11,751 bases of DNA, from assembly GCA_031272655.1 (NCBI GenBank), contig JAISTJ010000040.1, positions 1 to 11,751 of the forward strand. The letters run 5' to 3'. Position 1 is the stretch's first letter; every line of letters starts with the position of its first letter. The translations under genes and the position numbers were made by a program. The stretch comes from Tannerella sp. (lineage in GTDB: Bacteria > Bacteroidota > Bacteroidia > Bacteroidales > Tannerellaceae). The notes beneath the pieces are model-generated. The model was not told the origin of the DNA, made no database searches, and worked only from the letters and a program-made list of their open reading frames with translations. Shown here in pieces: positions 1,595 to 11,751 of this stretch.

Positions 1595-2928
1595 TTCAAC
1601 AATTCTTTTTCCGCATTATTGACTTTTTCAAAACCAAACCGACTGATAATCTTCTGTTTAAGTGCTGTTATACGGTCATTGCAGAGATTGCCGATGCTGC
1701 CTTCATGCGTATGGCGGATGTTGCGGTCGGGGGTGAAAGCGCCCGCTTCGATAGCGAGACCTACCTGTTTATAGGCGTCGCGGAACGGCACACCCTCGCC
1801 GACAAGACGGTTGACCTCCTCGACGCTGAACACGGGGGTGTATTTCGGGTCGTCTAAGATATGTTCGTTGACCTTGATTTCGTTCATCATCCGCGTTGTC
1901 ATCAACAGGCAGTCTTTAAGTTCGCCGAATGAAGGCAGGAATATTTCTTTAATAATCTGGAGGTCGCGGAAATAACCTGACGGTAAATTGTTGATAATCA
2001 GGGTAATTTGTTGCGGAAGAGCCTGCAGTTTGTTGCATTTGGCGCGGGTCAGTTCAAAGACGTCAGGGTTCTTTTTATGCGGCATGATGCTCGACCCTGT
2101 TGTATAGGCGTCGGGCAGGCGGATGAAACCGAAGTTTTGGCTGTTGAACAGGCATGCGTCAAAGGCGAGCTTCGAGAGCGTGGCTGCGACGCCGGCGAGG
2201 GCAAAGGCAACCGTCCGTTCCATTTTGCCGCGTCCCATCTGGGCATAGACGACGTTGAAGTTCATTGAATCGAAGCCGAGCAGTTCGGTCGTGAGCGTGC
2301 GGTTGAGCGGGAACGACGAGCCGTAACCGGCGGCCGAGCCGAGCGGGTTGCGGTTGCAGATACGGTAAGCGGCGAGCAGCAGTTCGAGGTCGTCGGCAAG
2401 GCTCTCGGCATAAGCGCCGAACCACAGCCCGAACGACGACGGCATCGCTATCTGCAGATGCGTGTAGCCGGGCATCAGGACGTCCTTGTAGCGTTCACTT
2501 TGCGCAATCAGGACATCAAAGAGGGCTGATACATGCGTTACAAGTTCCTGAATCTGCGCACGGGTAAAGAGTTTGAGGTCGAGCAGTATCTGGTCGTTGC
2601 GCGAGCGTCCGCTGTGGATTTTTTTGCCGGTGTCGCCAAGCGCCCGCGTCAGAAGCAACTCCACCTGCGAATGAACGTCTTCAACGCCTTCTTCTATGAT
2701 GAAATCGCCGTCTTTTGCCGTTTTGTATATCTTTTTCAATTCGGTCAACAGTGCTGCAAGTTCGTCTTTGGCGAGCAGGCCGACCGATTCAAGCATAATG
2801 ATATGCGCCATAGAGCCAAGTACGTCATATTCAGCTAAATACAAATCCATTTCACGGTCTTTGCCGACCGTGAAACGCTCTATTTCCGTATCAACCGCGA
2901 TGTTCTTTTCCCAAAGTTTCTTTGACAT
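1591..2928 (-). CDS. argH: Argininosuccinate lyase
   Basis: This is the cytoplasmic enzyme of the last step of arginine synthesis, splitting argininosuccinate into arginine and fumarate. The start is set at MSKKLWEKN, giving 445 aa, a usual size for the family. The frame is open 38 codons further upstream, but that would overlap the SRPBCC gene. Fumarase/aspartase superfamily motifs are present: SGRSRND near residues 106-112, the catalytic-His segment GYTHLQ near 154-159, and the signature GSSIMPHKKNP near 279-288, which includes the mobile catalytic serine. The gap from the SRPBCC stop is 10 nt, and the 3' end overlaps the lipoprotein gene by 4 nt, so the genes are surely cotranscribed. Nothing suggests loss of activity. 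Confidence 0.96.
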   Translation of the reverse strand: MSKKLWEKNIAVDTEIERFTVGKDREMDLYLAEYDVLGSMAHIIMLESVGLLAKDELAALLTELKKIYKTAKDGDFIIEEGVEDVHSQVELLLTRALGDTGKKIHSGRSRNDQILLDLKLFTRAQIQELVTHVSALFDVLIAQSERYKDVLMPGYTHLQIAMPSSFGLWFGAYAESLADDLELLLAAYRICNRNPLGSAAGYGSSFPLNRTLTTELLGFDSMNFNVVYAQMGRGKMERTVAFALAGVAATLSKLAFDACLFNSQNFGFIRLPDAYTTGSSIMPHKKNPDVFELTRAKCNKLQALPQQITLIINNLPSGYFRDLQIIKEIFLPSFGELKDCLLMTTRMMNEIKVNEHILDDPKYTPVFSVEEVNRLVGEGVPFRDAYKQVGLAIEAGAFTPDRNIRHTHEGSIGNLCNDRITALKQKIISRFGFEKVNNAEKELLK

Positions 2929-2938
2929 AGTTGTAACT

Positions 2939-3355
2939 TTATTCACTATAAGGCAGGTTCGCCAGCACGTCCGAAATCCTGTCCACTGCTTCCTGTAAGG
3001 GCTTGGAAACCATAGGTTTGATGAACGGATTAAGGTCTGCACGAACGGTCATCTTCATCTTTGTGTCGTTCGTTTCAACCTGTTTGAGTTGTATCCACAT
3101 CGTCAGCGGAACGGGCGAGTTGGTTGTCTCGAACTTGATAGTCCTGTTAGGCTCACGCTCAATTATTTTGAACTCGACCGAGCCGACAGGTGAGACCGAA
3201 AAACTGCACGTATCGCGGTCGAAAGTGAAGTTTTGGAGCTTGTCCTGCGGGATACGGTCTTTGACCCGTTCCAGATTGGAAAGGTCGGACAGCATGGCGA
3301 ACACTTTGTCGTCGCCATGCGGGATTGTCTTGATGTCGCTTACGAAATCTGCCAT
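2939..3355 (-). CDS. SRPBCC-family protein between pyrE and argH
   Basis: The 138-aa product starts at MADFVSDIKTIPH; a longer in-frame start would run into pyrE and is rejected. Its order of strands and helices fits a START/Bet v1-like (SRPBCC) fold. There is an N-terminal strand, helices around residues 15-34 (DKVFAMLSDLSNLER), then a run of beta strands (FSVSPVGSVEFKIIERE, TIKFETTN, PLTMWIQLKQV, KMKMTVRADLN), and a long C-terminal helix (KPLQEAVDRISDVLANL). Such proteins form a hydrophobic cavity for small ligands, but this member's ligand is unknown. It begins 2 nt after the pyrE stop and ends 10 nt before argH. From general knowledge the pyrE / SRPBCC / argH order recurs in Bacteroides relatives, which suggests a conserved but unexplained link. 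Confidence 0.8.
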   Translation of the reverse strand: MADFVSDIKTIPHGDDKVFAMLSDLSNLERVKDRIPQDKLQNFTFDRDTCSFSVSPVGSVEFKIIEREPNRTIKFETTNSPVPLTMWIQLKQVETNDTKMKMTVRADLNPFIKPMVSKPLQEAVDRISDVLANLPYSE

Positions 3356-3357
3356 AT

Positions 3358-3996
3358 TTATTTGTCGGGATCCCAGTTTGCGGGGTCTTTGCGCCATTCC
3401 TGCAGAACGGCGATATCCTCCTGGGTGATGTATTTTATACGCAATGCTTCGTCAATCACGGCGTTGTAGTTCGAGAGCGTTACCAAAGGCACTTTCGCCT
3501 CTTTAAAACTCTGCTCCACAATAGGGAAACCGTGAGTGAAGATAGCAACCATCCCTACCACCTCGCATCCGAAGTCGCGCACCGCTTTGACCGCTTTAAG
3601 GCTGCTTCCGCCGGTAGAAACCAAATCTTCGATTATAACTACCTTTGAAGATGTTTTAAGCTCGCCTTCGATGAGGTTTTCAAGCCCGTGATCTTTAGGC
3701 GCTGAGCGGATATAGACGAACGGCAGACCAAGAAGGTCGGCCACAAGCGCCCCCTGAGCAATGGCTCCCGTTGCAACGCCTGCAATAGCCGTCGCTGTGG
3801 GATATTTCTCGATTATCACACGGGCGAGTTCAGTCTTGATAGCTGTGCGGATAGCAGGATACGAGAGCGTCTTCCTGTTGTCGCAATAGATAGGCGACTT
3901 CCACCCGGAAGCCCAAGTGAAAGGATTAGCGGGTTGCAGCTTGATAGCTTTTATTTGCAGCAACTTCTCCGCAATAAGTCGTTCTAATGTTTTCAT
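3358..3996 (-). CDS. pyrE: Orotate phosphoribosyltransferase
   Basis: This enzyme joins orotate to PRPP to form orotidine 5'-monophosphate in pyrimidine synthesis in the cytoplasm. The 212-aa length is normal. The PRPP-binding motif VVIIEDLVSTGGSS is at about residues 119-132, with the two acidic residues and the TGG loop intact. The catalytic loop RSAPKDHGLENLIEG (about 97-111) contains the conserved Lys and His. The N-terminal FTWASGWKSPIYCDNR is the usual orotate-binding region. It is the first gene of the minus-strand operon that continues into the SRPBCC gene, argH and the lipoprotein. A TACCTTTG -7 box lies about 33 nt upstream of the start. Pairing a pyrimidine gene with an arginine gene is notable because both pathways draw on carbamoyl phosphate. 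Confidence 0.96.
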   Translation of the reverse strand: MKTLERLIAEKLLQIKAIKLQPANPFTWASGWKSPIYCDNRKTLSYPAIRTAIKTELARVIIEKYPTATAIAGVATGAIAQGALVADLLGLPFVYIRSAPKDHGLENLIEGELKTSSKVVIIEDLVSTGGSSLKAVKAVRDFGCEVVGMVAIFTHGFPIVEQSFKEAKVPLVTLSNYNAVIDEALRIKYITQEDIAVLQEWRKDPANWDPDK

Positions 3997-4028
3997 AGCT
4001 TTACCTGTTTTTAACCATAAATACGGCG

Positions 4029-4036
4029 CAAAGGTA
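4029..4036 (-). promoter_or_regulatory. -7 box of the pyrE operon promoter
   Basis: The minus strand reads TACCTTTG, an exact TAnnTTTG match, giving a leader of roughly 25 nt before the pyrE start. The expected -33 TTG is not clear in the AT-rich sequence upstream, so the call rests on the -7 box and its position. It is divergent from the tsaC promoter, about 45 nt away. Confidence 0.5.
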
Positions 4037-4081
4037 ATATATTTTTTAATAAACGGCGCTTTTTAACGAAAAATTTATATC

Positions 4082-4116
4082 TTTTTTGCATTTAACACTA
4101 ACTTGCATTATCTTTG
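4082..4116 (+). promoter_or_regulatory. Bacteroidota-type promoter of the tsaC operon
   Basis: TTTTTTG at 4082-4088 is followed by a 20-nt spacer and TATCTTTG at 4109-4116. Both boxes and the spacing fit the Bacteroidota consensus well. The -7 box ends only 10 nt before the start codon at 4127, so the mRNA leader would be just a few nucleotides and leaves no room for a Shine-Dalgarno sequence. Confidence 0.7.
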
Positions 4117-4126
4117 CACCCCGATT

Positions 4127-4699
4127 ATGAACAATTTTGACGAAGATATTAGGACTGCGTGCGCGGTTTTGCGGGAAGGAGGATTGATACTCTACCCGAC
4201 CGACACGGTTTGGGGCATCGGATGCGACGCTACCGACGAGGCTGCCGTTGAGCGGATTTACAGGCTCAAACGGCGCACCGACAGTAAGGCTATGCTTGTG
4301 CTTACCGACACGGTGGCCAAACTTGAAGCGTATGTTACGGAGGTTCCCGAAATGGCATACGAGTTGGTAGAAGTCAGCGACAGCCCGCTTACCATCATCT
4401 ATCCTGAAGCGCGTAACCTCGCGCGGGGGCTTGTCGGCGAAGACGGGAGCATCGGCATCCGCATCACCCGCGAGCCTTTCTCGCAGCATCTGTGCGCCCT
4501 GTTCCGCAAACCCGTGGTTTCTACTTCGGCGAATATTAGCGGTCAGCCGTCGCCCGCTTCTTTCGGCGAAATCGCGTCAGAAATCATTAACGGCGTTGAT
4601 TATGTCGTGAAATACCGTCAAAATGAGACCGTTAAGTGCAAACCTTCGGGGATAATCCGCTTGGGCAAAGGAAATACCGTACAAATAATCAGAAAATAA
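4127..4699 (+). CDS. tsaC: L-threonylcarbamoyladenylate synthase (TsaC/Sua5/YwlC family)
   Basis: The 190-aa product is a YrdC-fold enzyme that makes threonylcarbamoyl-AMP from threonine, bicarbonate and ATP. This is the first step toward the t6A modification at position 37 of tRNAs reading ANN codons. Seen motifs are LYPTDTVWGIGCDA (about 22-35), the KRR..SKAMLVL segment (48-59), SPLTIIYP (86-93), GSIGIRIT (107-114) and STSANISG (132-139). The length matches the short TsaC-like form, lacking the extra Sua5 C-terminal domain. The start at MNNFDED is preferred over an upstream in-frame ATG at 4103, because that codon lies upstream of the promoter's -7 box. It is followed after 1 nt by the sugar transferase gene, so the two are cotranscribed. 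Confidence 0.92.
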   Translation: MNNFDEDIRTACAVLREGGLILYPTDTVWGIGCDATDEAAVERIYRLKRRTDSKAMLVLTDTVAKLEAYVTEVPEMAYELVEVSDSPLTIIYPEARNLARGLVGEDGSIGIRITREPFSQHLCALFRKPVVSTSANISGQPSPASFGEIASEIINGVDYVVKYRQNETVKCKPSGIIRLGKGNTVQIIRK

Positions 4700-4700
4700 G

Positions 4701-6095
4701 ATGGATAAACGCAAACAAAGGATAAGATATATCATTTCGGATTTCATTACGGCGGCTGTCGCGTGGTTTCTGTTCAATCTGCTTCGCTATCACGAAGTTG
4801 TGCAGTACGAGTCCGACACTCTGGGAAATTTTTTGCTGTACGGGCAGGTGCTGAAAGGACAAACGCTAATTCCGTTTTTCTGGCTGATTATCAGCTTCTT
4901 TTCGGGATATTACAACCGCCCGTTCGGGAAATCTCGGATCGGGGAGTTTTTTACGACTTTTGTTACTGTGGCTGTGGGTGTTACGTTGATATTTTTTGTA
5001 GTGGTGCTTAATGAGGTGCCCCGTTCGTTTCAGATTTACTATAACCTGTTTTTCGCGCTCTGCCTGCTGCAGTTCGTGTTGATGTACGCGGGGCGGTTTG
5101 CGATTACGACATACACGATGCATAAGGTTTGGCGGCATGAATGGCGGGAAAATGCGCTGATAATCGGGAATGGCGAAAATGCCATGCGGCTTTGCGACAA
5201 CCTGATTGAACAAGGCTATCTCGTGATGGGGATGGTGGACGAAAAAGATATTAGTCCCGATAAATCCGTGCTTCACTATACTTGGACAGGCGCCATGGGG
5301 GACGAAGCTATTCGTAACGGCAAACAACACATTCATGCGATATACGTAGCGGTGGATTCGGGCAACGAAGTCCAACTCCTTTATAACCTGTATCATTACA
5401 ACATCCCGATAAAGGTAGTGGCTACCGAAAAGAATAACCTTCTCTCGAAAGCGAAAGTCAATAATATTCAGGACATTCCGACCATTGACGTTATGGAAAA
5501 CAACTTTTCGGAGATGGAACGCAACATCAAGTGGTTTATGGACAAAGCAGTTTCGGCGCTGGTGCTTGTCGTCCTGTCGCCGCTTTTCCTGTACATCGCG
5601 CTGATGGTGAAGCACGGCAGCAAAGGGCCTGTATTTTTCCGTCAGGAGCGGATAGGTTATCGCGGTAAACCGTTCACTATCTTTAAGTTCCGCACCATGT
5701 ACGCCGATAAAGCAGGCGAGGGGCCGCTATTGACGGCACGCGACGACAAGCGCGTTACGCCTTTCGGGAAGTTCCTGCGAAAGTATCGTTTGGACGAGAT
5801 ACCGCAGTTCTGGAACGTGCTGAAAGGGGACATGTCGCTCGTCGGTCCGCGCCCCGAACAGAAATATTATATAGACAGGATTGTTACGAAAGCGCCTTAT
5901 TATTACCTGCTTCACAACGTCCGCCCGGGCATCACTTCGCTTGGGATGGTGCGTTACGGCTATGCCGAGACGGTCGAAAAGATGATCGAACGCCTGCATT
6001 ACGACATCCTCTATTACGAAAACATGTCGCTCGTCCTCGACATTAAGATATTGATTTACACTATAAAAATAGTTTTTACTGGGAAGGGGGTATAG
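4701..6095 (+). CDS. Polyprenyl-phosphate glycosylphosphotransferase (WbaP/WcaJ-like initiating sugar transferase)
   Basis: The 464-aa membrane enzyme would move a sugar-1-phosphate from a nucleotide sugar to undecaprenyl phosphate, starting assembly of a polysaccharide or glycan repeat unit on the inner membrane. Four N-terminal hydrophobic segments (about 12-27, 57-70, 87-103, 113-131) are followed by a Rossmann-like region with NALIIGNGENA (151-161). A further hydrophobic segment (284-303) precedes the catalytic bacterial sugar transferase domain. That domain shows FRQERIG (313-319), FKFRTM (328-333), the LDEIPQFWNVLKGDMSLVGPRP block (364-385) with the catalytic Asp-Glu pair, and VRPGITS (407-413). 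The sugar specificity cannot be read. No other polysaccharide genes are nearby, so it is an orphan here, placed in an operon with tsaC and a ClC channel. Confidence 0.92.
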   Translation: MDKRKQRIRYIISDFITAAVAWFLFNLLRYHEVVQYESDTLGNFLLYGQVLKGQTLIPFFWLIISFFSGYYNRPFGKSRIGEFFTTFVTVAVGVTLIFFVVVLNEVPRSFQIYYNLFFALCLLQFVLMYAGRFAITTYTMHKVWRHEWRENALIIGNGENAMRLCDNLIEQGYLVMGMVDEKDISPDKSVLHYTWTGAMGDEAIRNGKQHIHAIYVAVDSGNEVQLLYNLYHYNIPIKVVATEKNNLLSKAKVNNIQDIPTIDVMENNFSEMERNIKWFMDKAVSALVLVVLSPLFLYIALMVKHGSKGPVFFRQERIGYRGKPFTIFKFRTMYADKAGEGPLLTARDDKRVTPFGKFLRKYRLDEIPQFWNVLKGDMSLVGPRPEQKYYIDRIVTKAPYYYLLHNVRPGITSLGMVRYGYAETVEKMIERLHYDILYYENMSLVLDIKILIYTIKIVFTGKGV

Positions 6096-6099
6096 ATAA

Positions 6100-7920
6100 A
6101 TGATTGAAAATAAGGATAATATATTTTACAGGTTTTTGCTTTGGCGCGAGAAGCATATCAATGAGCGGACTTTTGTGCTGATAATCAGTTTCTTGGTCGG
6201 TTTGTGCGCTGCTGTTGCCGCTATCGTGCTGAAGAACGCTATTCATCTGATACAGAACTTGTTGACGTCTAATCTTAAAGAGGGCGCTAACTATCTGCTG
6301 CTGCTTTATCCTGTGGCGGGGATACTGCTTGCGGGGCTGTTTGTGAAATATATCGTGCGCGACGACATCAGTCACGGCGTTACGAAAATACTTTTCGCCA
6401 TTTCGCAGCGCAAAAGCCGCATCAAGCCTCACAATATGTGGTCGTCAATGGTGGCGAGCAGCGTTACAATCGGCTTTGGCGGCTCGGTAGGCGCGGAGGC
6501 GCCTATCGTGCTGACGGGTGCGGCTATCGGCAGCAATCTCGGACGGCTGTTTCGCCTTGAGCAAAAGACGCTCATGCTCCTTGTAGGATGTGGCGCCGCA
6601 GGGGCTGTGGCAGGGATTTTCAAAGCGCCTATCGCGGGCTTAGTCTTTGTTATTGAGGTGCTTATGCTCGACCTTACGATGACGTCGGTGCTGCCGTTGC
6701 TGATAGCATCCGTTACCGCCGCCACAATGTCGTACATCTTTACAGGCACGGAACCAATGTTCAGTTTCTCGCAGACAGAGGAATTTGCGCTGCACAAGAT
6801 ACCTTACACGCTGATGTTGGGCATCTTTTGCGGACTTGTTTCGCTTTATTTCACCCGCGCTTCGATACGCATCGAGGGTTGGTACCGCAAGTTCCTGCCG
6901 CAATACTGGCAGAAATTCCTCGTCGGGGCGGCGGCGCTCAGCCTGCTTATCTTCCTATTCCCGCCGCTCTATGGCGAAGGTTACAATACAATCGTCTCGC
7001 TGCTCGACGGGCAGTTCACCAACCTCATGCAGCAAAGCCCGTTAAGTACCGTCATTGCGAGGAACGAAGCCATCTCGCCATTCATAGACTATTGGGGCAT
7101 CATCTTCTTCCTCATCCTAATCCTGCTATCCAAAGTTTTCGCCTCAACAGCCACCAATAGCGGCGGCGGCTGCGGCGGTATCTTTGCCCCAAGCCTTTAT
7201 TTAGGCTGTATCGCGGGTTTCGTTTTCTCTCACTCTTCCAACTATTTTGATATTACGGCGACGCTTTCGGAGAAAAATTTCGCGCTAATGGGCATGGCAG
7301 GCGTAATGTCAGGCGTTATGCACGCACCGCTGACAGGCGTTTTTCTGATAGCCGAACTGACAGGCGGCTACGACCTCTTCCTGCCTCTGATGCTCGTTTC
7401 AACAAGTTCCTACGCCACAATTATCATCTTCGAGCCGCACAGCCTCTATTCCATGCGACTTGCGCAGAAAGGCGAACTGATGACGCACCACAAAGACCGC
7501 GCCGTGCTGACGCTGCTCAAAATGGACAACATCATAGAAACCGATTTCATCCGCGTCAGCCCCGACATGTCGCTTGGCGACCTTGTGCGCAACGCCGTCG
7601 CCCAAAGCCCCCGCAGCATGTTCCCTGTTGTCGAAAACGACGGCAAACTGCTTGGCGTGGTGCAGGTGGATAACATCCGCAACATCATGTTCCGACCCGA
7701 ACTGTACGACCGCTTCCACGTCTCGCGCTTCATGCTCTCGCCCCCTGCAAAGGTCGTCAACAACATGTCTATGGAACAGATAATGCGCCTCTTCGACGAC
7801 ACAAAAGCATGGAACCTCCCCGTCATAGATGAGAACGGCGCCTACCTCGGTTTTGTCAGTAAATCAAAGATTTTCAACGCCTACCGCGAAGCGCTTGTGG
7901 ATACATTTATGGGAGACTAA
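6100..7920 (+). CDS. ClC-family chloride channel/transporter with C-terminal CBS pair
   Basis: The 606-aa inner-membrane protein has about ten or more hydrophobic segments from residue 25 to 445. ClC landmarks are GFGGSVGAEAPIVLTGAAIGSN (125-146), where Glu133 sits at the gating-glutamate position, and GGIFAPSLYLG (359-369). Others are GMAGVMSGVMHAPLTGVFLIAELTGG (398-423) and a conserved Tyr region at 450. Two CBS domains follow (about 475-535 and 542-598), which in this family often sense nucleotides. A gating Glu is compatible with either a Cl-/H+ exchanger or a channel. Residues 318-326 (VIARNEAIS) are encoded by a copy of the dispersed repeat found elsewhere in the window, lying in frame in a loop between membrane segments. 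The gene starts 4 nt after the sugar transferase stop and ends before a hairpin terminator. Confidence 0.95.
   Translation: MIENKDNIFYRFLLWREKHINERTFVLIISFLVGLCAAVAAIVLKNAIHLIQNLLTSNLKEGANYLLLLYPVAGILLAGLFVKYIVRDDISHGVTKILFAISQRKSRIKPHNMWSSMVASSVTIGFGGSVGAEAPIVLTGAAIGSNLGRLFRLEQKTLMLLVGCGAAGAVAGIFKAPIAGLVFVIEVLMLDLTMTSVLPLLIASVTAATMSYIFTGTEPMFSFSQTEEFALHKIPYTLMLGIFCGLVSLYFTRASIRIEGWYRKFLPQYWQKFLVGAAALSLLIFLFPPLYGEGYNTIVSLLDGQFTNLMQQSPLSTVIARNEAISPFIDYWGIIFFLILILLSKVFASTATNSGGGCGGIFAPSLYLGCIAGFVFSHSSNYFDITATLSEKNFALMGMAGVMSGVMHAPLTGVFLIAELTGGYDLFLPLMLVSTSSYATIIIFEPHSLYSMRLAQKGELMTHHKDRAVLTLLKMDNIIETDFIRVSPDMSLGDLVRNAVAQSPRSMFPVVENDGKLLGVVQVDNIRNIMFRPELYDRFHVSRFMLSPPAKVVNNMSMEQIMRLFDDTKAWNLPVIDENGAYLGFVSKSKIFNAYREALVDTFMGD
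7050..7074 (+). repeat. Dispersed repeat element inside the ClC gene
   Basis: This 25-nt segment begins CGTCATTGCGAGG and ends GAAGCCATC. It matches the elements at 594-618 and 636-660 (on the opposite strand) at 24 of 25 positions; the only change is CAATC to CCATC. It is read in frame as VIARNEAI without disturbing the protein, in a loop region between hydrophobic segments. Confidence 0.85.
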
Positions 7921-7925
7921 CTTTT

Positions 7926-8215
7926 GAATTAAGAATTAAGAATTAAAAATTAAGAGCTAAGAGTTACATGTAGTCAAGGCCTCAGAAGCGGATTAAGTAA
8001 GTCCGCTTTTTTTATGCCCTTTTGTCTTATAATAATACATAATTTTTCTGAATTTTTCTTAAATATTTAATATCGTAACATTTTAATTTCCTAATTATAC
8101 TATCAGGGTCGTTGAATAGAAAATAAATGAATTGTACGAAAGCGGCGCGGTTGGTTACACTCAAAGATGCCCACCACATCAGAGGCTCGCTAATCTAATT
8201 CTTAATTTTTAATTC
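7926..8215. repeat. AT-rich inverted repeat pair flanking a non-coding stretch
   Basis: Reiterated GAATTAA words run from 7926 to about 7955. The 16-nt word GAATTAAAAATTAAGA at 7940-7955 recurs as a perfect reverse complement at 8200-8215, so the two arms enclose about 245 nt. The arms could mark an old small mobile element, but low-complexity words of this kind are common between genes in Bacteroidota, so chance or independent copies are also possible. Confidence 0.45.
7986..8013 (+). terminator. Rho-independent terminator after the ClC gene
   Basis: A 7-bp stem AAGCGGA (7986-7992) / TCCGCTT (8002-8008) with a 9-nt loop runs straight into seven T's (8007-8013). It lies about 65 nt after the ClC stop codon and would end the tsaC-sugar transferase-ClC transcript. 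Confidence 0.8.
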
Positions 8216-8355
8216 AGCCTGTCCGTCTATCTCAACTTACCAAATCTATATCGGGTCATTTTTGTAATACACTGATATATAAGCTTTTAATAAGCTATCG
8301 CAAACGCCCGATATATGGGGGGCTGTTTCAAAAAGCGTTCTTTTACTTCGTGGCT

Positions 8356-8429
8356 CACTGACGGCTCTGCAAGGCAAGCAACCGGCAGTGAAACCTTAAA
8401 AACCAACAACGGGGAAGCCGAAAACCGTT
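8356..8429 (+). promoter_or_regulatory. Possible structured leader upstream of the DUF6745-like gene
   Basis: CACTGACGG (8356-8364) can pair with CCGGCAGTG (8382-8390) with one mismatch across a 17-nt loop. AACGG (8408-8412) can pair with CCGTT (8425-8429). These lie 35 to 108 nt before the start codon at 8464. No T-run follows, so a plain terminator is not indicated. I recognise no known riboswitch or leader RNA class. Confidence 0.3.
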
Positions 8430-8463
8430 AACAGAGTAGGCACACATTTAATTCGTATTATTA

Positions 8464-9870
8464 ATGAGTAAAAACAAACAACAACTTGGGAATGACCCTG
8501 ATTTTCAACGAGCAAAGCCTCGCTTGACAGCCATTGAGCAAAAGTATCTTCGTATGATTACGAACAGAAATGTGGATATGCCGACCTTGAGAAGGTGCAT
8601 TCACAATCTCTACAAAAGCGCGGGCATCCAAACCGAGCCGGAAATCGTTGTCTGCGACGATATGTACGTATGCAGGCTCTTGATTGAAATGCTGAAAGAC
8701 ACGGAAGTAACAGAGCATTTACAATTAAGTAAGCCTGTTGAACTCCCTAAAATAAAGGTATATCTGTCCTCGGCATATCGTTTGTGGAATAAAATAGACT
8801 ATGCTATTAGTAAAGAAAAAATTCGATATTGGTCTATGGATGGTAAATTGCCTTGGCCCTCTACTAATAGGCTGCCTATTTGGGGCATACATAATAATAT
8901 CAGAACTATTGTAAATAACGCAGACAAAATGAATGTTCATAAAAATTTCCTTGAGCGCTTTAGAGAAAATCCTGACACCGGCAGTTGGGAATTTATGCCA
9001 ACCATACTCTCAACTCTTCCATGCTCGCTTGAGAACTATTTCTCTTCCGATGCGTTCTTCAACTATATCTGCTCCAAATCAGCGGATACTGATTTTTGGC
9101 TTAAGATACAATGGAATTACATAGGCAAAGCGTATGATTCTTCCGACAAACTTGATTTTGTCAATTATTACAATCTTTTTTATTATGATTATTATAAATC
9201 AAAAAGATGGAGGCAGACCAGGAAAGTTGAAGTCGCACGTAATAAAGTCAAGGACAATCTGATAGAACTTCATCAAGCCTGTTCCATATTTCAATCTTTC
9301 TTGTATGAAAACTATGTGTTTATTGTTAAAACGCCGCAAATAACACTTGACGCTGACCGTAAGGATGCAATCGCATTCCACGACGTCGAGCAACCGGCTA
9401 TATTCTTTAACGAGGCTTGTAATTTCTGCTTCATAAATGGTCGTCAAGTACCCGGCTGGGTCGTCAAAGAAAGAGATTATGAAATGCTCTATTACAAATT
9501 CATGGCAGAGAAGAACGAGAATATAAGAGCAGCAGTTGTTACCGTTATCAAAGCGCGGCACGGGACGGAAGGTCTGTTGGACTTCCTTAAAGCCGAAGTG
9601 GTTGATGAACAAACTATTAGCCATTTCGACGGATATACCGAGACGGTGAGCCTGCTTAAAACAAAGGAACGATACAGTTTTCTTCGAGACCGTATGAAGC
9701 AGCCGTATCAACCCTATTGCTGGTCTAAGATAGTTTGCCCGTCAACCGGCTCTACATATCTTATTGACAACTCGGCAGATTTCACCGACGCTGTTGAGGC
9801 TCTCAAGTGGCTTCGCCCGTCGTTTGTGCCCGATACAATGAAATATAAATGGTCATTTTTTGCTAATTAA
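8464..9870 (+). CDS. DUF6745-like protein of unknown function
   Basis: The 468-aa product has no signal peptide or membrane segment and is probably cytoplasmic. Two regions remind me of DUF6745 proteins. The first is an N-terminal LTAIEQKYLRM...LRRCIHNLYKSAGI...PEIVVCDD (21-66), similar to their 'Y..AGL..P..vvw..SP' start. The second is a C-terminal part: VFIVKTPQITLD (285-296), AIAFHDVEQPAIFF (302-315), FINGRQVPGWVV (323-334), the helical IRAAVVTVIKARHGTEGLLDF (354-374), and a final ST-G-STYLID...DAVEALKWL (427-450). The assignment is from memory. The middle (90-270) is rich in aromatic and charged residues with no recognised motif. It is followed after 21 nt by the domain A gene, so it is probably the first gene of the accessory operon. 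No enzymatic function is proposed. Confidence 0.6.
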   Translation: MSKNKQQLGNDPDFQRAKPRLTAIEQKYLRMITNRNVDMPTLRRCIHNLYKSAGIQTEPEIVVCDDMYVCRLLIEMLKDTEVTEHLQLSKPVELPKIKVYLSSAYRLWNKIDYAISKEKIRYWSMDGKLPWPSTNRLPIWGIHNNIRTIVNNADKMNVHKNFLERFRENPDTGSWEFMPTILSTLPCSLENYFSSDAFFNYICSKSADTDFWLKIQWNYIGKAYDSSDKLDFVNYYNLFYYDYYKSKRWRQTRKVEVARNKVKDNLIELHQACSIFQSFLYENYVFIVKTPQITLDADRKDAIAFHDVEQPAIFFNEACNFCFINGRQVPGWVVKERDYEMLYYKFMAEKNENIRAAVVTVIKARHGTEGLLDFLKAEVVDEQTISHFDGYTETVSLLKTKERYSFLRDRMKQPYQPYCWSKIVCPSTGSTYLIDNSADFTDAVEALKWLRPSFVPDTMKYKWSFFAN

Positions 9871-9891
9871 TAGTTTAATATTTAAGTATTT

Positions 9892-10263
9892 ATGAAGGTT
9901 TTAAAACAAATCGGTCACCAAGGTGACACCCAATGGTTCGCTGTGGACATGATACCACAGGACGCAGTCAAAGTAGAAAAGCAGTACATCGCTGCTTCCG
10001 AACGCACCGGCTCGGTGCATGCCCTCTGCGGCAACTACGACATGTACAGGGGGACTGACGGAGTAACGTACGTGGACGTCCACGAGGAGTGTGTACTCAA
10101 TCACACTTACCGTCATAACCTCGGCACTGATGGCTACGACCGTGCTGTAACGCTTCCGGTCAAAGACCACCGCCACTCCGTTATCGCCCCCGGCGTCTAT
10201 GCCGTCGGCATCCAGCAACGCTTCGACCCCATAGTTGTACGTCGACGCATCATCATCGACTAA
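9892..10263 (+). CDS. Small His-rich conserved protein (domain A, stand-alone copy)
   Basis: This is a 123-aa soluble protein. It reads QGDTQWFAVDMIP near residues 10-22, then IAASERTGSVHALCG (33-47), YVDVHEECVLNHTY (60-73) and KDHRHSVIAPGVYAVGIQQRFDP (91-113), ending RRRIIID. The block with conserved His residues, one Cys in ALCG and one in EEC could be a metal site, but that is inference. The outline resembles small proteins with 'vaHSETGH.H', 'H' and 'G.y.v..QREY.P' elements that I recall from other phyla, possibly as neighbours of DUF6745 genes. A second copy forms the N-terminal part of the fused gene at 10978, with about 81 of 111 aligned residues identical. The gene lies 21 nt after the DUF6745-like gene. 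No family name is given with confidence. Confidence 0.75.
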   Translation: MKVLKQIGHQGDTQWFAVDMIPQDAVKVEKQYIAASERTGSVHALCGNYDMYRGTDGVTYVDVHEECVLNHTYRHNLGTDGYDRAVTLPVKDHRHSVIAPGVYAVGIQQRFDPIVVRRRIIID

Positions 10264-10280
10264 AGGTCAAAGCCCTGCAA

Positions 10281-10366
10281 TACTGAGCGCGAAGAACGCC
10301 AGGCAGCACAGTTGCCAAGTAAAAAGCCCTTAGCGTCTTATGCACTTGGCGCCTTTGCGCTCAGTA
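10281..10366. repeat. Cruciform-forming repeat element between domain A and domain B genes
   Basis: TACTGAGCGC (10281-10290) and GCGCTCAGTA (10357-10366) are perfect 10-bp inverted ends. Inside them GCCAAGT (10314-10320) and ACTTGGC (10344-10350) form a second perfect 7-bp pair. The 86-bp element can therefore fold as a branched hairpin on either strand. Its size, perfect ends and intergenic position suggest a miniature repeat element; no other full copy is seen in the window. Confidence 0.65.
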
Positions 10367-10393
10367 TCAATTCACTCACCACTCACCACCTCC

Positions 10394-10418
10394 CGTCATT
10401 GCGAGGCACGAAGCAATC
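10394..10418 (+). repeat. Dispersed repeat element, third locus
   Basis: This copy begins CGTCATTGCGAGG and ends GAAGCAATC, differing from the 594-618 consensus at one base (GGCAC for GGAAC). It lies 28 nt after the cruciform repeat and 28 nt before the domain B start codon. It has the same orientation as the copy inside the ClC gene and is inverted relative to the 591-726 array. Confidence 0.85.
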
Positions 10419-10445
10419 TCACTAAACATTCATCACTAAATTTTT

Positions 10446-10934
10446 ATGGAAACAAAAGTAAAAAAACAATCAGAAACAGAAACAAACGAATTAGCAATTC
10501 TTCTGCGTACAACCCCGTCTAACCGTCCTGTCAAAGGCAGAACGATGGTCTATATTCCGGCTATCAATCCGGATACGTTCCTACATCTTAATTGGTGGCA
10601 TGACTCATGCCGTCTGCGCGACTATTCGGGCTATACCGGCTACAATCTTTTCGAGAGCACGCCTCCACGTCTTGAATGGGTTGAAAAGCAAGGTATTAAA
10701 TACGAAGTGGCTGTTCCTGACGGCAAAATCGCTTTCAATATCCCTTATTGGCATCAAAAAACCAAAGAATTGAACGAGCAATACGGCATCAAACCAAGTA
10801 AACGGCACGTACATCTCGGCCTCCCGCATGAAATGAACGACCGCTTAGCGACGCTTGCCGATAGCAACGGCGTCAGCATCAACGACTACATCGCCGGCGT
10901 GCTGCAAAGCCACTTAAAATTAAGTAATAAGTAA
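10446..10934 (+). CDS. Domain B protein with C-terminal ribbon-helix-helix-like segment
   Basis: The 162-aa soluble protein opens with a short charged stretch (METKVKKQSETETNE). Then comes a block shared with the next gene: VYIPAINPDTFLHLNW (35-50), SCRLRDYSGYTGYNLFE (54-70), IKYEV (84-88) and YWHQKTKELNEQYGIKPSK (101-119). I do not recognise this block. Residues 121-157 (HVHLGLPHEMNDRLATLA, then NGVSINDYIAGVLQSHL) follow the ribbon-helix-helix pattern of CopG/HicB/Arc-like proteins: a strand, a helix ending in LA, a G-S turn, and a second helix starting NDYI. It may bind DNA, but such segments also serve as dimerisation or accessory domains. In the downstream paralogue the same region is fused behind domain A. 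A gap of 182 nt filled with repeats separates it from the domain A gene. Confidence 0.75.
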   Translation: METKVKKQSETETNELAILLRTTPSNRPVKGRTMVYIPAINPDTFLHLNWWHDSCRLRDYSGYTGYNLFESTPPRLEWVEKQGIKYEVAVPDGKIAFNIPYWHQKTKELNEQYGIKPSKRHVHLGLPHEMNDRLATLADSNGVSINDYIAGVLQSHLKLSNK

Positions 10935-10977
10935 AGATTCAAGATGCAATAATTATTAATTTTAATTTTTTTAAGTT

Positions 10978-11751
10978 ATGCAATTTTTAGAACAACTCGG
11001 TCTCCAAGGTGATACTCAATGGTTTTCCGTTGATAAGATTCCGGAGGATGCATTCAAAATTGAAACGCGGTTCATCGCTGCTTCCGAAAAATCTGTACAT
11101 GCCCTTTGCGGCAAATACGACATGTACGAGGGCTTGGACGGCGTGATATACGTGGATGTCCACGAGGAGTGTGTGCTCAATCACACTTACCATCAGAACC
11201 TTGGCGTTAAAGGCTACAACCGTACCGTAACGCTTCCGGAGAAAGACCATCGCCACTCCGTCATCGCCCCCGGTCAATATTCCGTCGGCATTCGCAAACG
11301 TTTCTTCCCATTTCCCCTGCATCGTCGAAATGCAAACAAACAATCAGAAGAAGAAATAGATGACTTTGATGGATTACTGCTACATCTGCTACAAGAACAA
11401 TTAAGCCGTGAAACTCATGGCGTATCGTTGATCTATGTTCCGGCTATCAATCCGGACACGTTCCTGCGCTTCAACTGGTCGCACTCTTCATGCCGCCTGC
11501 GCGATTATTCCGGATATACCGGCTACCCTCTTTTCGAACACAATCCACTTCGCGTTGAGAAAATTGATGAGAAAGACATTAAGTATGAAATCGTCATGCA
11601 ATACGTGCCGTTTACCGACATTGACTATTGGCATCAGAAAACAAAAGAGATAAACGAACAATACGGCGTCAAACCGAGCAAAGCGCACGTACATCTCGGT
11701 CTCTCGCCTGACATGTACAGTCAGTTAGCGATGCTTGCCAAGAGCAATGGC
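10978..11751 (+). CDS. Fused domain A-domain B protein (3' end outside window)
   Basis: From the ATG at 10978 one frame is open without a stop for 258 codons to the window end. Residues 1-111 (start MQFLEQLGLQGDTQWFSVDK) match the protein at 9892 at about 81 of 111 positions; the main gap is loss of Thr-Gly in the ASERTG segment. Residues 112-150 form a linker (HRRNANKQSEEEIDDFDGLL...). Residues 151-258 (IYVPAINPDTFLRFNW, CRLRDYSGYTGYPLFE, YWHQKTKEINEQYGVKPSK, HVHLGLSPDMYSQLAMLA) match the protein at 10446 and break off inside the ribbon-helix-helix-like segment. The linker's KQSEEE aligns with KQSETE at the start of the separate domain B protein, so the joint sits right at that gene's beginning. 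It starts 43 nt after the domain B gene and is probably in the same operon. Confidence 0.85.
   Translation, partial: MQFLEQLGLQGDTQWFSVDKIPEDAFKIETRFIAASEKSVHALCGKYDMYEGLDGVIYVDVHEECVLNHTYHQNLGVKGYNRTVTLPEKDHRHSVIAPGQYSVGIRKRFFPFPLHRRNANKQSEEEIDDFDGLLLHLLQEQLSRETHGVSLIYVPAINPDTFLRFNWSHSSCRLRDYSGYTGYPLFEHNPLRVEKIDEKDIKYEIVMQYVPFTDIDYWHQKTKEINEQYGVKPSKAHVHLGLSPDMYSQLAMLAKSNG

Follow-up and report, generated by a model that had tools for sequence, protein, structure and literature searches.

Fusion and fission (Rosetta-stone) pairs in general consist of separate genes together with a composite gene, and the locus described here holds such an arrangement. A second described system that it resembles is formed by genes of the DUF6745 family (PF20530) that are accompanied by a short neighbour with the pattern QGD...GHxH...HEEH...QREYxP, for which we found no family name; as in our window, an A-type gene stands there beside a DUF6745-type gene. 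A third resemblance, to the Arc-type ribbon-helix-helix (RHH) regulators (PF03869, phrog_582), lies in a probable RHH region at the C-terminus of B.

The window, i.e., the whole 11,751-nucleotide stretch that was analysed, is the entire contig C203 of a Tannerella sp. genome (G000; 72.5% complete, 225 contigs). It carries a gene that we name U, followed by a single-domain gene (A1), a separate gene (B1), and a fused gene (A2-B2) that is cut by the contig end. A search of the genome's contigs confined A and B matches to this contig.

RESULTS

A split and a fused copy of the same two domains lie side by side

The initial annotation read A and B as two separate genes that are followed by a gene with A and B in one frame. 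The open reading frames lie where it placed them (Table 1), with 0 stops in the 258 fused codons, and the alignment that it proposed at the joint (KQSETE/KQSEEE) is real. A stop in the fused gene near 11310-11430, which it had named as a ground for doubt, was not found on checking the assembly sequence. Its other doubt, a missed frameshift joining the gene at 9892 with that at 10446, is ruled out for one frameshift: A single missed frameshift cannot join A1 to B1, since every forward frame of the gap is interrupted by stops and the frame of B1 itself is closed at 10284, 10320, and 10437.

A1 and A2 share ~70-71% identity (E = 2.6e-54) and B1 and B2 ~56-57% (E = 1.2e-46); judged by similarity far above chance, both halves are true paralogues. 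A direct repeat (D3) pairs 9864-10002 with 10950-11088 at 76%, and the duplication extends ~28 nt upstream of the A start codons. At the joint, ungapped A homology at the DNA level stops at 11309 and B homology begins at 11328, such that the last ~11 A codons, the 182-nt gap, and the first B codons are missing from the fused gene, with a six-codon linker instead. Pairwise dN/dS, obtained by a simple counting method on single pairs, amounted to 0.28 for A1-A2 (117 codons, dS 0.67) and 0.31 for B1-B2 (134 codons, dS 0.95). Both halves look constrained as proteins by this measure, and the split and fused forms look maintained. The ages of the A and B duplicates are not far apart, as expected from the duplication of a two-gene unit.

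Table 1. Features of the window, with the basis of each assignment.
Feature	Position	Strand	Basis
RF02914 (DUF805b, cis-regulatory motif)	8408..8442	+	cmscan 52.1 bits vs gathering 35.6, E 3.5e-13
U, 468 aa; C-terminal part a divergent DUF6745 relative	8464..9870	+	neighbour survey and profile-profile match
Leader of A1	9864..9891	+	resembles A2 leader (10950-10977); direct repeat D3
A1, complete single-domain A protein, 123 aa	9892..10263	+	ORF; 231 homologues; 40/41 family-conserved columns kept; tree
Gap between A1 and B1, 182 nt	10264..10445	.	stops in all three + strand frames
Inverted repeat I3 (15-nt arms, 93% complementary, 58 nt apart); long hairpin	10280..10367	.	repeat search and DNA fold
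Copy of genome-wide repeat ATTGCGAGGNACGAAGCAATC	10398..10418	+	pattern count in G000
B1, separate B protein, 162 aa	10446..10934	+	85% to B part of P0002, 56% to B2
Probable Arc-like RHH region of B1, ~residues 119-158	10800..10919	+	several weak library matches
A2-B2 fused gene, 258 aa, open at window end	10978..11751	+	ORF
A2 domain of fused gene	10978..11309	+	homology limits; AlphaFold2 domain of beta strands
Six-codon linker at fusion joint	11310..11327	+	stretch between A and B homology limits
B2 domain, ~20 residues short at contig end vs B1	11328..11751	+	alignment to B1

Within the gap, the predicted DNA fold of 10270-10400 has a z score of -3.90, with 0 of 200 shuffles equally good. 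The repeat ATTGCGAGGNACGAAGCAATC occurs in the genome in 76 forward and 62 reverse copies at no more than 1 mismatch, against 0 for a backwards-read control, i.e., as an interspersed repeat of 138 copies over both strands. One copy, read from the sequence, lies within the ClcA-like gene near 7050-7080, and pieces of the repeat match many genomes of the genus.

Upstream, the G+C content is ~0.38-0.39 over U (window 8000-9600) compared to ~0.47-0.56 in the housekeeping genes (1600-7600), and the low value would fit a foreign source of U. The RF02914 motif is separated from the downstream U by 21 nt and has no second copy above cut-off in the genome; in a related locus (L008:8811-8843), the motif precedes a different gene, neither A nor U. 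No promoters stood out in a scan of the sequence (5 found, 8.2 expected). In genome G080 (one contig), other genes follow the ClcA homologue.

A1 resembles ordinary members of a large single-domain family

Among 233 candidates, 231 homologues of A were found at E <= 1e-3, in a search that admitted 68 to 215 aa only, such that long fusions could not show. In an AlphaFold2 model of the fused protein, the A domain consists of beta strands with ten-residue pLDDT means of 84-97 over residues 1-110, and its conserved histidines and acidic residues might serve to bind metal or in catalysis. Across 99 standalone A rows, 41 columns reach a conservation of 90% or more; A1 deviates at one of them, A2 at six, and the A part of a second fused protein, P0002, at eight. 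H9, K30, G40, Q108, and D112 are altered in both fused A domains and intact in A1, and Q108 is invariant among 13 near and remote A proteins. Moreover, A1 reaches the C-terminal end of the single-domain family, an end that is altered in both known fused A domains. A tree of 123 rows, for which the tool warns of few columns for the number of rows, unites A1 and P0004 with A2 and the A part of P0002 in one group (100/99) and pairs the two fused A domains (100/98).

A1 thus does not appear to be a broken half: It looks like the ordinary form, with the fused A domains as a derived branch. Since A1 keeps the family columns and the C-terminal end that the fused A domains changed, fusion appears to be derived on the A side, and since the fused A domains are both changed and grouped, fission by insertion is disfavoured there. 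One viral contig (L020:5994-6303) encodes a truncated or recombined A, with other sequence following its first ~50 residues.

The second fused protein has a mixed history

P0002, a 272-aa A-B protein carried by two JGI contigs no longer than 4395 bp, is the only other fusion found. For its A part, identity is 85% with A2 and 68% with A1, and A2 is nearest in 0.99 of 2000 bootstraps (110 columns). For its B part, identity is 85% with B1 and 52% with B2, and B1 is nearest with a bootstrap of 1.00 (137 columns). The split pair and the two halves of this composite lack a single common history. The equal 85% of the two halves suggests that P0002 split once from this array and combines an A2-type A with a B1-type B, the outcome expected of an exchange within the B region; alternatively, B2 could have evolved very fast. 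The halves seem to have been re-assorted, and no single event seems to explain A1/B1, A2-B2, and P0002 together. B1 may be a beheaded fused gene instead of an ancestral free B, as three B sequences give no root.

These data bear on two claims of the initial annotation. The fusion that it saw in the split/fused pair is real and both forms look maintained, but the view of the pair as one unit before and after a single event is not supported. The ancestry, which it let run either way (fusion by deletion of the gap or fission by insertion of repeats into it), is now narrowed on the A side, where the intact positions of A1 disfavour fission, and P0002 fits neither simple route.

B appears nearly an orphan, with a probable Arc-like end

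Among 5.8 billion proteins, B was found in three only, namely, B1, the fused A2-B2, and P0002: A query with the fused protein (admitting 142 to 451 aa) returned these three among 266 candidates, and a query with B1 returned the same three among 21. No A-B match was present in 122 other genomes of the family, and B was not found in viral contigs by two protein-based scans and one DNA-pattern scan. On these counts, B appears to be nearly an orphan. It is absent from the other A loci seen and is therefore not needed for whatever U and A do.

The C-terminal part of B1 resembles Arc-like repressors. It matched phrog_582 (Arc-like repressor) at E = 1.8e-5 over residues 104-159, the Pfam families HicB and Arc at 0.0018 and 0.004, both below gathering, and the PDB Arc repressor at E = 0.22 over residues 122-157. 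Against Arc (PF03869), B1 scored 17.4 bits and P0002 17.3 bits, where gathering is 20.4. Although each of these matches is weak, the Arc-like ones fall on the same 35-55 residues of the B end across several libraries. We call B probably Arc-like and not a member of PF03869, since its score lies below gathering. The top-ranking PDB entries for B1, plant UDP-glycosyltransferases (E = 0.005, residues 50-96), we took for chance matches. Weak HicB, CopG-antitoxin, and RelB-antitoxin matches were also seen for B; family scans named no toxin family for U, A1, B1, or A2-B2, the locus being covered as far as the contig end. In the AlphaFold2 model of the fused protein, the B part is of low confidence (block means 31-62).

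The recurrent neighbour of A is a DUF6745-like gene

We fetched 14 related loci with the A profile (L007-L020; 2 from genomes and 12 from viral contigs) and found a U relative encoded within ~4 kb of A in 12 of them. A U-like gene lay <150 nt from A in 10 of the 14 loci and 2.3 and 4.0 kb away in two; as to the two loci without U, L018 starts 37 nt before A and L020 has only the first half of A. In 8 of the 12 U homologues, the N-terminal half contains long four-residue repeats of SQLxSQLx or xDQVxDQV types (e.g., L007:6375-7751 and L016:4307-5941), which are absent from the window's U, and the L016 homologue matches Pfam DUF826 in the repeat region (31.5 bits vs 25).

The window's U has no match to PF20530 (gathering 27 bits), and two of six scanned U homologues match it below cut-off (15.8 and 14.7 bits). 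A profile-profile comparison (hhalign) of U with DUF6745-type proteins, however, gave a probability of 98.5 (E = 2.3e-15, for one comparison) over 150 columns in the C-terminal domain, and all nine of nine DUF6745-type proteins outscored every reversed control against U. We call U a divergent relative of DUF6745 and not a member, as judged from these profiles. No U match was found in 392 other genomes of the order.

The pairing was seen again at larger distances. In a phylum sample of 395 genomes, A matches occurred in G000 and G358 only and PF20530 in G358 only, where a remote A gene (L023:7160-7522) overlaps a DUF6745 gene (7500-8702, E = 1e-10). A SAM_alpha riboswitch match (RF00521, L023:6916-6991, 43.5 bits vs 36) lies in the same locus and is followed by the A-DUF6745 pair; an ORF beyond the pair (within the stretch 7160-9869) is one that we take to be metK, and the pair may be part of a SAM-regulated operon. 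In a plasmid sample of 11 records with a DUF6745-type match, an A-like short gene lay directly upstream (0-204 nt) of the DUF6745-type gene in 8. A Nostoc record had no A-like gene of at least 60 aa directly upstream, and two Acetobacter records gave partial DUF6745 matches, seen in annotation only. Remote A and U homologues stand side by side in Deinococcus, Methylobacterium, Nonomuraea, and Streptomyces. At six loci (L024, L026, L027, L030, L052, and L053), DUF6745 and A-like genes adjoin genes annotated STM4011-STM4015, which include two radical SAM families; all six lie on plasmids, from the genera Deinococcus, Methylobacterium, and Streptomyces. The D. ficus locus (L029) continues with a gene for a VWA protein.

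The short QGD/HEEH neighbours link well to A at the profile level. Compared with A by hhalign, their family gave a probability of 84.7 in global and 90.8 in local mode (E = 1.2e-6, for one comparison), and the A-like genes share G11, D12, E37, H43, H93, G101, Q108, P113, and D123 with A1 (nine invariant columns in 13 rows). Single members are weak: By hmmsearch, five of nine pass inclusion, and two of nine (Scad and Dfic) fall below the best reversed control. A accompanies DUF6745-type genes both in phage contigs and in bacteria from several phyla, and the two therefore probably share one task.

DISCUSSION

We propose that two small genes, A and B, underwent a tandem duplication as a pair behind U, the DUF6745-like gene. 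The second copy would then have lost the final part of A2, the spacer, and the opening codons of B2, yielding the in-frame A2-B2 protein, while A1 would have remained an ordinary A protein; B sequences would later have been exchanged between copies or arrays, producing P0002 with its A2-type A and B1-type B. We consider this evolutionary part likely, in an order of events that we infer. For its consequences, A may be a small beta protein and act together with U (its remote homologues probably act with DUF6745 in the same way), and the C-terminal Arc-type RHH domain of B may dimerise and bind DNA, in which case the fused protein would tie an A domain to DNA. The likeliest role of A2-B2 would be to regulate the U-A locus, either by competition with the free A1-U pair or by sensing it. 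This regulatory part, from DNA binding and dimerisation to A-U contact and regulation, is possible yet rather doubtful, and the whole, i.e., duplication, fusion, and a regulatory offshoot, we hold tentatively, at a little short of even confidence. A broader version is unlikely, though worth stating: A and DUF6745-type proteins might form an undescribed and very old two-protein module, spread over phages and bacteria of several phyla, that was here wired to DNA by the capture of an orphan RHH protein, both free and fused, as module regulator.

The initial annotation took the split/fused pair to mean that A and B act together physically. This is plausible in view of the two fused proteins, but the gene that recurs beside A is DUF6745-like and not B, and the initial annotation made no mention of this neighbour. 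The stronger form of the idea, in which A and B are an old physical pair whose complex is recorded in the fusion, strikes us as improbable: The two fused proteins have a homologous joint and A1 adjoins B1, yet B occurs in so few proteins compared to the 231 homologues of A, the three scans of viral contigs were without it, and U takes its place as the recurrent neighbour.

Similarly improbable to us is a mobile U-A island that carries B as an accessory DNA-binding or RHH antitoxin-like gene, with a fusion that arose by near-neutral shuffling of the array and has no role of its own. The lack of A-B matches in the family and of U matches in the order would fit such an island, as would the different genes behind the ClcA homologue of G080, the mixed look of P0002, and the antitoxin-like matches of B; against it, the dN/dS of ~0.3 in both halves suggests that the products are kept, and no toxin family was named for the four scanned proteins. 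Least of all do we expect an ancestral A-B fusion that repeat insertion (a hairpin plus the ATTGCGAGG repeat) divided into A1 and B1 in copy 1, for although a hairpin and a genome-wide repeat are present in the gap, and the start of B1 matches the P0002 linker from KVKKQSE on, such that B1 could be a beheaded fused gene, A1 spans to the free-family end and keeps positions that both fused A domains changed, where a split half should carry the fused-type end, and no A-like stretch was seen by eye in the three forward translations of the gap.

Duplication and fusion, with a possible regulatory offshoot, remain our preferred reading, and the case, although genuine, is a modest one, next to a gene pair that has received little study. 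Where a split and a fused copy occur naturally next to each other, whether two domains work together can readily be tested. RHH-domain fusions are ordinary, and the conserved A-DUF6745 pairing is the more lasting lead; the setting in G358, with its SAM riboswitch and metK-like gene, and the STM4011-STM4015 neighbours on plasmids provide a first lead on the role of DUF6745.

Set against the known systems, the window departs from each in its own way. Compared to DUF6745 loci, its U is without a PF20530 match and differs in its N-terminal half, the order is reversed (U comes first here, but the A-type gene does so in G358 and the eight plasmid loci), and B and the fused copy are added. Unlike in Arc-type regulators, the RHH region of B would follow ~100 residues of orphan sequence, preceded in A2-B2 by an A domain as well, and its scores are below Pfam gathering. 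Compared to Rosetta-stone pairs, finally, both forms stand side by side in one locus, and the halves of P0002 are without one common history.
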